Assembly (NCBI RefSeq): GCF_022352215.1
Contig: NZ_JAKRWF010000001.1
Span: 558,001-622,000 of the forward strand
Source of the DNA: Flavihumibacter cheonanensis
Lineage (GTDB): Bacteria > Bacteroidota > Bacteroidia > Chitinophagales > Chitinophagaceae
Direction of reading: 5' to 3'
DNA length: 64,000 bases
Part shown: piece after piece, positions 57,440 to 58,884 of the stretch
Layout: each line of letters starts with the position of its first letter
Numbering within the stretch: position 1 is the first letter of the stretch
Notes under the pieces: model-generated
What the model was told of the DNA's origin: nothing
Databases searched by the model: none
Seen by the model: the letters and a program-made list of their open reading frames with translations, nothing else
Program-made: the position numbers and the translations under genes

Positions 57440-57480
57440 TTTGGATGGTCTTACGATAAAATTGTTTTCATAAAGACTAA

Positions 57481-57516
57481 ATATTTATTGAAAAACAATA
57501 AATATCACTATATTTG
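57481..57516 (+). promoter_or_regulatory. Promoter overlapped by a perfect palindrome, upstream of DUF2975-HTH
   Basis: ATATTTATTG (57481-57490) and CAATAAATAT (57496-57505) are perfect 10-bp arms around AAAAA. The -33 TTG is 57488-57490, inside the left arm, and the -7 TATATTTG is 57509-57516, with an 18-nt gap. It is a textbook position for an operator that blocks RNA polymerase, probably bound by the HTH protein encoded downstream. Confidence 0.75.
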
Positions 57517-57545
57517 TGTGGTAAAACCGATAAAGACCAGCCAAT

Positions 57546-58094
57546 ATGAAAGTTAGTACCAAGCAGTTACTCGTAGTTATCCAGGTTATTTCCTGGATCA
57601 TTTTTGTGGGTGTTTGTATGGAAGCAGGGGGATTTTTATTTAATACCATTTATACATTTTTCTTCAATCAAAACGAAGCCAGAATGTATTGGTCTAATGT
57701 TGATTTGTCGGCTTTGTTTCGATCCGACAAAGTACAGTTCTTAACCATCACCACTCTGATGACAATTGTTGCTATTCTGAAAGCAGTGCTTTTTTACATC
57801 ATAATAAAAGTATTGCACGATCAAAAACTGGATCTCTCAGAACCATTTAAACCTGGCATCGGTCAATCAATTTTTAATATGTCTTATGTGTCTTTTGGTA
57901 TTGGACTTTTTGCCAATTGGGGTACACGTTATACGGATTGGCTGGAACAGCAGGGGATAAGCATGCCGGAAATCCAATACATGGGACTTGGGGGTGCCGA
58001 CGTATGGCTTTTTATGGGAGTGGTACTTTTTGTAATTGCATTGATATTCAAGAGAGGTATAGAAATACAAACTGAAAATGATCTAACTGTTTAA
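57546..58094 (+). CDS. DUF2975 membrane protein
   Basis: A 182-residue inner-membrane protein with four hydrophobic segments: LLVVIQVISWIIFVGVCMEAG, FLTITTLMTIVAILKAVLFYIIIKVL, FNMSYVSFGIGLFANWG and GADVWLFMGVVLFVIALIF. DUF2975 genes are almost always paired with a small YozG-type HTH regulator, and the pair here is three bases apart. The function is unknown; the pair behaves as a membrane sensor/regulator in proposals only. It has its own promoter with a palindrome. Confidence 0.9.
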   Translation: MKVSTKQLLVVIQVISWIIFVGVCMEAGGFLFNTIYTFFFNQNEARMYWSNVDLSALFRSDKVQFLTITTLMTIVAILKAVLFYIIIKVLHDQKLDLSEPFKPGIGQSIFNMSYVSFGIGLFANWGTRYTDWLEQQGISMPEIQYMGLGGADVWLFMGVVLFVIALIFKRGIEIQTENDLTV

Positions 58095-58097
58095 GCC

Positions 58098-58307
58098 ATG
58101 GCAATTATTGTAAACCTGGATGTTATGATGGCCAAGCGAAAAATGTCGCTGAATGAATTATCTGAAAAAGTGGGACTTACTTTATCTAATCTTTCCATAC
58201 TTAAGACGGGTAAAGCAAAAGCCATCCGATTCAGCACGCTGGATGCCATCTGTAAGGCGTTGGATTGTCAGCCAGCTGATATATTAGAATACCGGGACAA
58301 GCCCTAG
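58098..58307 (+). CDS. Small XRE/YozG-like HTH regulator
   Basis: 69 residues comprising one helix-turn-helix (AKRKMSLNELSEKVGLTLSNLSILKTGKAKAIRFSTLDAICKALDCQPADIL), the YozG subgroup of XRE regulators. It has no effector domain. It begins three bases after the DUF2975 stop, so it is co-transcribed and probably controls the pair, perhaps binding the palindrome at 57481. Its stop is one base from the convergent DUF4256 stop. Confidence 0.92.
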   Translation: MAIIVNLDVMMAKRKMSLNELSEKVGLTLSNLSILKTGKAKAIRFSTLDAICKALDCQPADILEYRDKP

Positions 58308-58308
58308 C

Positions 58309-58884
58309 TCAAATTTTCAATGAACCCCTAAATCCTCTTGCTGCATAGTAAGATTCTGCGCCATTATGGTATATGAAAACACGTTCAAATCGTCTGTCCC
58401 CAAAAATGGCGCCTCCTAATTTTCGTATAGGCGCAGGAGTTAGTAGCCAACTGGATGTTTTAAGGTCATAACTGCCGGTTTTCTGCAGTAAATGGTACTC
58501 CTCTTCCGTTAACAACTCAATACCCATTTCTGCTGCCATATTGGTAGCGCTGTCAGCAGGTTTGTTTGCTTTCCTTGATTCCAGTGCTTCGGAATCATAA
58601 CAGCAACTTCTTCTGCCGGTCGGACTCTCAGGCGAGCAGTCAACAAACCAATACCTATCCGTTTGTTTTTCATAATCTATTACATCCGGTTCACCTCCTG
58701 ATGCTTCCATTTGCTGAAGCGACCATAATTTTTCTGGCTGGGTCTCCAGCTTTTTCTCCAGTTTATTCCACTCCAATCCTTCATGGCGGCCTGGATTGTT
58801 TTCAAACCTTGCTTTCAGGGTAGCAAGCAATTGCTGTTTTTCTTTTGTGGATAGTGTCTTGTCTGAATGACGGCTTTTTTTCAT
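58309..58884 (-). CDS. DUF4256 family protein
   Basis: 191 residues with no membrane segment or signal. The family's typical segments are visible: LLATLKARFENNPGRHEGLEW, ASGGEPDVI, DRYWFVDCSPESPTGRRSCCYDSEALESRK and DLKTSSWLLTPAPIRKLGGAIFGDRRFERVFIYHNGAESYYAARGFRG. The function is unknown. The conserved cysteine cluster CCYD could bind metal, but this is a guess. The stop lies one base from the HTH gene's stop in convergent orientation. Confidence 0.85.
   Translation of the reverse strand: MKKSRHSDKTLSTKEKQQLLATLKARFENNPGRHEGLEWNKLEKKLETQPEKLWSLQQMEASGGEPDVIDYEKQTDRYWFVDCSPESPTGRRSCCYDSEALESRKANKPADSATNMAAEMGIELLTEEEYHLLQKTGSYDLKTSSWLLTPAPIRKLGGAIFGDRRFERVFIYHNGAESYYAARGFRGSLKI

Follow-up and report, generated by a model that had tools for sequence, protein, structure and literature searches.

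A palindrome conserved at DUF2975-HTH gene pairs is the predicted operator of a proposed CylR2-like autorepressor that its membrane partner may release

Induction of the promoter that CylR2 binds and represses in Enterococcus faecalis requires CylR1, a small membrane protein, and involves no phosphorelay (PMC3709268). The gene pair that we describe may be likened to this system, since it places a tiny HTH protein, with a CylR2-like fold in its structural model, beside a membrane protein gene. Three transmembrane helices are predicted for CylR1 (PMC3709268), whereas our DUF2975 model has four long helices. Besides, CylR2 acts on a divergent cytolysin operon, whereas the known sites in our case lie at the promoter of the pair itself and ahead of an esterase gene.

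In Bacillus subtilis, a signal causes SdpI, a polytopic membrane protein, to sequester the autorepressor SdpR at the membrane (PMC1626106). The shared feature is a two-gene unit of a membrane protein and an autorepressor, the latter being predicted in our case. SdpR is an ArsR-type protein, whereas the proteins here are of the HTH_26 and PF11188 families; no ArsR family was listed for the HTH protein in Pfam at E 0.01, with HTH_26 as the best match, which sets it apart from SdpR. The phage 434 repressor is alignable over the HTH segment, including the loop after the recognition helix, and differs in having no membrane partner. Its half-site differs from the one here, and it prefers certain central bases of its operator, a preference that the A/T-only spacers here recall.

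A pair of a YoaS-like protein ('a membrane protein, likely permease') and Xre was reported with 32 occurrences by Makarova et al. in 2009 (PMC2701414). It is most likely the same gene pair as ours. YoaS presumably carries DUF2975. The portions of that account used here give no operator, target, mechanism or contact (PMC2701414). Our search of the literature, mostly of openly readable text without supplements, found nothing on an operator or a contact for the pair. The pair itself was already in print in 2009 without an assigned function, and the operator and the contact appear to be new.

In the window (the whole stretch of 64,000 nucleotides that was analysed), the pair consists of two genes:

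57546-58094, plus strand: DUF2975 membrane protein of 182 aa with four long helices (PF11188, 32.2 bits; AlphaFold2 pLDDT 93.1)
58098-58307, plus strand: HTH_26 (Cro/C1-type) protein of 69 aa, the proposed autorepressor (PF13443, 87.2 bits; CylR2 fold match)

The DUF2975 protein exceeds the curated PF11188 cut-off of 27 bits with a best stretch that covers residues 142-182 only, and the HTH protein exceeds the PF13443 cut-off of 22 bits. In NCBIfam and PADLOC at E 0.01, no match was found for the DUF2975 protein and generic HTH matches were found for its partner. The HTH gene begins three bases past the DUF2975 stop codon. A DUF4256 gene converges on it from the minus strand (58309-58884), and the ends of the two genes are one base apart.

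CylR2 was the top fold match of the HTH model (pLDDT 81.6; helices at residues 29-37 and 45-55), with a VIA-align Z of 10.7, an rmsd of 1.9 over 65 aligned residues and a Foldseek E of 2.7e-4; several other XRE proteins fall within 1 of this Z, and the match to CylR2 at the level of sequence profiles is weak (E 0.055). The DUF2975 model, built with 47 sequences, had no match with E <= 0.001 in a fold search against the PDB. A second comparison (best Z 9.6), with many unrelated helical proteins behind its best match, pointed to no convincing structural relative.

Our best reading of the sequence evidence is a CylR2-like autorepressor that is released by its membrane partner DUF2975. We give it a probability of roughly 0.6 as a joint statement, with binding and repression as its core. 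The site, its position on the promoter, its conservation with the pair, the second target site, and the conservation and covariation of the tail are read from the sequences themselves; binding, repression, direct contact, and release over co-repression are the parts that we infer. An HTH dimer would bind TTATTG-N5-CAATAA (in general form TTATYG-W5-CRATAA) across the -33/-35 element and the promoter spacer, exclude RNA polymerase, and so repress its own operon. In the genus of the window, it would also repress an esterase gene. The ENDLTV tail of DUF2975, probably cytosolic, would dock next to the loop that follows the recognition helix, where residue 42 lies. In response to a signal, DUF2975 would keep the HTH protein off DNA and turn the operon on.

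The predicted operator and promoter elements are the following:

57481-57505, no strand: predicted palindromic operator (arm match, and core conserved at other pairs)
57488-57490, plus strand: the -33 TTG, which belongs to the left half-site (same spacing from TTG to -7 in relatives)
57509-57516, plus strand: -7 element TATATTTG, which fits TAnnTTTG (consensus from PMC7366714 and PMC9723704)

The palindrome is made of ATATTTATTG (57481-57490), an AAAAA spacer (57491-57495) and CAATAAATAT (57496-57505), and the conserved core TTATTG-N5-CAATAA lies at 57485-57501. The layout given in the original prediction was borne out: the 10-bp arms around the five-base spacer are complementary at 10/10 positions, the -33 TTG closes the left arm, and the -7 element starts three bases (57506-57508) past the right arm, 18 bases separating it from the TTG. 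A direct repeat, ATAAAGAC, at 57470-57477 and 57530-57537, 60 bases apart, flanks the operator and promoter.

The intergenic stretch ahead of the DUF2975 gene has 106 bases and 26% G+C. Four of 2000 Markov shuffles of it gave a perfect 10+5+10 palindrome, and 19 of 2000 gave perfect 10-bp arms with any spacer of 0-20. Over the whole window there is one perfect 10+5+10 palindrome (0 or 1 in each of ten shuffles), and perfect 10-bp arms with spacers of 0-20 occur nine times vs two to five in shuffles. By sequence alone, the palindrome is improbable yet not decisive in AT-rich DNA, and the matter is decided by conservation.

Relatives of the window DUF2975 protein, used as query, were found in 36 of 119 related genomes. 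Exact TTATTG-N5-CAATAA lies upstream in 28 of the 30 fetched loci (window included), and one further locus has it with one mismatch; at L016 the gene follows another pair, which has a one-mismatch site ahead of it. The DUF2975 family search gave matches in 46 of 295 genomes of the class. The 77 class loci, drawn from both sets and from extra sites, yielded 71 HTH genes (none in L007, L088, L103, L106, L109, L110 and L116), two of which (L104, L108) have no upstream ORF. The remaining 69 pairs were scored, with two places counted twice (L016/L102 and L018/L126).

The search for similar palindromes at other DUF2975-HTH pairs, proposed along with the original prediction, was successful. Allowing one mismatch, TTATTG-N5-CAATAA is present ahead of 62 of the 69 class pairs (48 with no mismatch, 14 with one, three with two, three with three and one with four), and 66 of 78 scored named loci, from the best 80 of 582, have a site at the same tolerance. 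At the same class loci, none of the 139 control regions taken from within or downstream of the genes has such a site, and 12 of 1400 Markov regions do. The genome of the window has a second DUF2975-like + HTH pair (C110:696735; 696473-697245), which carries TTATTG-TTTTA-CGATAA, has Gly42 in its HTH protein and has a partner tail that ends in LFI.

The named-genome scan used the HTH alignment, and the best 80 of 582 loci were taken, with L203 and L222 unscored. These 80 include Flavobacterium, Chitinophaga, Exiguobacterium, Trichococcus, Planococcus and Acetivibrio, so both Bacteroidota and Bacillota are represented. Among the 78 scored, 28 loci have no mismatch, 38 have one, and two, three and four mismatches are found in four loci each.

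Eighteen loci, mostly misses, were re-read to 1700 bases upstream of the HTH gene. Exact TTATYG-N5-CRATAA was found in six (L023, L024, L134, L176, L189 and L222), and others show one-mismatch matches, possible by chance over 1700 bases. No site lies within this distance in L108, L194, L199, L201, L235 and L243, nor at the second pair of L105, whose flank ends early. The HTH variant TTVNLS/KGVRF (second pair of L105, L235 and L243) has no canonical site and no clear shared alternative palindrome. The partner of this variant ends in ENESFI/V.

On plasmids, six of 12 loci have a site with at most one mismatch: two in Priestia, and one each in Bacillus glycinifermentans, Staphylococcus casei, Parabacteroides and Providencia, the last 199 bases ahead of the annotated start. 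Two mismatches are found in Vibrio and in Streptomyces scopuliridis (TTATCG-TTCTT-CGATAA), a second Streptomyces locus has CTATCG-AAAAT-CGATAG, and the Klebsiella pneumoniae, Serratia and Methylosinus loci have no site. The window DUF2975 protein had no tblastn match in the plasmid collection.

A fresh set was taken from viral, plasmid and phylum collections, where 180 HTH matches gave 130 with an upstream ORF and 117 new distinct pairs. TTATYG-N5-CRATAA with at most one mismatch was found in 73 of 117, vs 1 of 117 inside-gene controls. The other 44 of 117 rows have at least two mismatches, and some of these have doubtful gene starts or no DUF2975-like partner.

The primary promoter of Bacteroidota has TTTG near -33 and TAnnTTTG at -7 (PMC7366714, PMC9723704), and the arrangement of palindrome and promoter reads as this layout. 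Counting against the promoter reading, one Flavobacterium study reports that no -33 motif could be identified (PMC7366714). At the 44 non-Bacillota sites of the named set, TAnnTTTG with at most one mismatch lies 18-20 bases past the left-arm TTG in 30; within 15-24 bases it is found in 32 of 44 vs 28 of 176 shifted positions.

In Bacillota, the -35 TTG is contained in the left half, and the best -10 sits 20 bases past it (a 17-base spacer after TTGNNN) in 14 of 23 sites. The left half is TTATTG in 21 of these 23 and never TTATCG, and the right half is CGATAA in 16, whereas outside Bacillota both half orders are found (9 vs 6). The Clostridium locus L222, which was not scorable among the named loci and was left out of the Bacillota promoter counts, has TTATCG-ATTAT-CAATAA 278 bases ahead of the HTH gene, in the half order opposite to the other Bacillota sites. 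TTATCG would suit the HTH protein at least equally well, and the left half may be mostly held at TTATTG because it doubles as the -35. In 65 of 66 sites, the operator spacer consists of A and T alone.

For the proposed contact between the two proteins, two further features are relevant:

58074-58091, plus strand: codons of the C-terminal tail ENDLTV, residues 177-182 (near-invariance in 47 sequences)
58221-58223, plus strand: codon of HTH Ala42 in the loop after the recognition helix, the proposed tail contact (covariation; model)

Six positions of DUF2975 are invariant or nearly so, and four of them fall in the last six residues, ENDLTV; E177, N178, L180 and T181 are nearly invariant across the 47 sequences. 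The tail should be cytosolic because of the four membrane helices and the N-terminal Lys residues. Across 156 pairs, mutual information with average-product correction places tail position 181 and HTH residue 42 second among 10,443 inter-protein pairs, after DUF I19-HTH N19; relatedness inflates this list, since other inter-protein positions score equally high.

In the 156 pairs, Ala42 occurs with a penultimate tail residue of Thr (140), Ile (3), Val (3) or Arg (1, a mis-called ORF), and Gly42 with Phe (6) or Tyr (3). In the 117 fresh pairs, Ala42 (n = 80) occurs with Thr (73), Val (3), Leu (2), Lys (1, a mis-called ORF) and one non-membrane-like ORF, Gly42 (n = 29) with Phe (19), Ile (8) or Tyr (2), and Phe42 with Gly (2/2). 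The rule for Gly42, Phe/Tyr-only at first, was thus widened to Ile, which is also seen with Ala three times. Two distant HTH proteins on viral contigs (L302 and L303) have Phe42 and a penultimate Gly in the partner, a mirror of Gly42 with Phe/Tyr, and lack a canonical operator. Six other distant HTH proteins with different residues at 42 (L304, L307, L313, L316, L337 and L339) have upstream ORFs that are not DUF2975-like.

Altogether, 265 pairs were compared, excluding these six rows, L422 and L452, where the upstream ORF was mis-called, and any row lacking a hydrophobic stretch, and retaining the mis-called ORF of L199 (tail Arg). Ala42 goes with Thr in 213 of 225, Gly42 with Phe, Tyr or Ile in 38/38 and Phe42 with Gly in 2/2. 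A small HTH residue with a bulky tail residue, and the reverse, is what packing would predict.

On a FastTree tree of the 265 pairs, made with the columns in question removed, Gly42 changes nine times. Four independent contrasts fall on well-supported branches, and all four go in the expected direction counting Phe/Tyr/Ile, none being opposite; with Phe/Tyr alone the average is 2.5 of four, and p 0.05 is out of reach because the contrasts number four. One such contrast was present in the earlier tree, which covered 156 pairs. The tail of DUF2975 probably contacts the HTH protein directly near residue 42.

Positions 17-45 of the family profile align with residues 16-44 of the 434 repressor, which places A42 on 41 and R44 on 43. 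In the 434 repressor, Arg43 reaches into the minor groove in the middle of the operator, and this fits the A/T-only operator spacers. A tail docked at residue 42 could compete with DNA or with the dimer.

The same contact could serve co-repression in the style of a toxin-antitoxin system, where the HTH protein and DUF2975 would form one repressing complex, the tail would strengthen DNA binding, and free DUF2975 may harm. The covariation points to a contact and says nothing on direction, and the unit is small, with two genes, one of which encodes an Xre-type protein. YoaS-like + Xre pairs surfaced in a toxin-antitoxin screen, and the authors' reply to a reviewer kept membrane toxins possible; however, they excluded it on the ground that type II systems with a membrane component were not known (PMC2701414). 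A contact in the loop beside the DNA-reading helix would fit better with competition with DNA, and we regard co-repression as unlikely. If the tail does make this contact, it is likely that DUF2975 releases the HTH protein rather than acting with it.

The genome of the window has another perfect copy of the palindrome, with the identical spacer, at C186:168248-168272, 36 bases ahead of the ATG of an esterase (PF00756). All five esterase orthologues of at least 54% identity carry the site with at most one mismatch, 55-57 bases from the start in four and about 135 in one (G006). None of 16 weaker esterase matches carries it; the closest of these, G051 (47%), has a two-mismatch site in a genome without a match to the window DUF2975 protein. 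The esterase is the sole hint at the signal or physiological role of the pair.

A wider regulon was searched by exact-pattern scans of the 119 relatives and the 295 class genomes. The pattern occurs in 39 of 119 relatives (its reversed control in two genomes) and in 68 of 295 class genomes, with many of the latter sites at DUF2975 matches. Among 20 sites away from the first DUF2975 matches, six belong to further membrane-ORF + HTH pairs (L080, L081 and L084-L087), four are at esterases (L076, L077, L078 and L083), eight are isolated, several of them inside genes, and L088 has an ambiguous neighbourhood in which no HTH was found. Twelve class-level sites chosen for A/T spacers have no HTH neighbour and no recurrent gene, and no recurrent target beyond the pair and the esterase family was found among the sites inspected. 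One of the 20 sites is a copy before an ankyrin-repeat gene, with a -7-like ACATTTG, seen once (L079, 2002-2023; G064:C20). In two loci of the window's genus (L084:2878-4001 and L085:272-1147), the ORF after the pair appears to read like an ABC-transporter ATPase.

This distribution also bears on the idea that another, unlinked regulator binds the palindrome and controls the DUF2975 operon. Binding by the HTH protein is a prediction, and the esterase site puts the motif away from the pair. Nevertheless, the site accompanies the pair across several phyla, the sparse copies elsewhere are non-recurrent among those inspected, and many of the exact sites in the 68 of 295 class genomes stand at DUF2975 matches, so an unlinked regulator seems quite improbable. 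The small HTH protein had been named as the natural candidate to bind, and it gains support because the site tracks the pair across phyla and other copies are few and, among those inspected, non-recurrent, save for one esterase family. The palindrome is very probably the operator of the pair's own HTH protein.

An AT-rich repeat that arose by chance, or a terminator belonging to the upstream phosphoesterase gene, as the 26% G+C and the start 41 bases past the upstream stop codon might suggest, is scarcely credible for a palindrome that is not G+C-rich, has no T run, is conserved behind differing upstream genes at a set promoter spacing, and is found at 62/69, 66/78 (best 80 of 582) and 73/117 loci.

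Beyond the original prediction, the second genomic target site, the conservation across phyla and the covariation of the two proteins are new. Putting them together with the autorepressor reading, we tentatively propose, at a little under even odds, a widespread phosphorylation-free membrane module with one ancestral operator, TTATYG-W5-CRATAA, in several phyla. The end of the tail would plug the loop beside the DNA-reading helix, DNA and membrane would compete for one face of the protein, and the left half TTATTG would be fixed as the -35/-33.

A pair present in many bacteria and annotated merely as 'DUF2975' and 'helix-turn-helix' gains a predicted DNA target, a candidate contact between its proteins at the level of single residues and a first candidate target elsewhere in the genome, and its function becomes testable. 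The signal path of CylR1/CylR2 is described as not understood in the portion of the account considered here (PMC3709268). If the docking of the tail is true, it hints at how small membrane protein-repressor pairs like CylR1/CylR2 could work.
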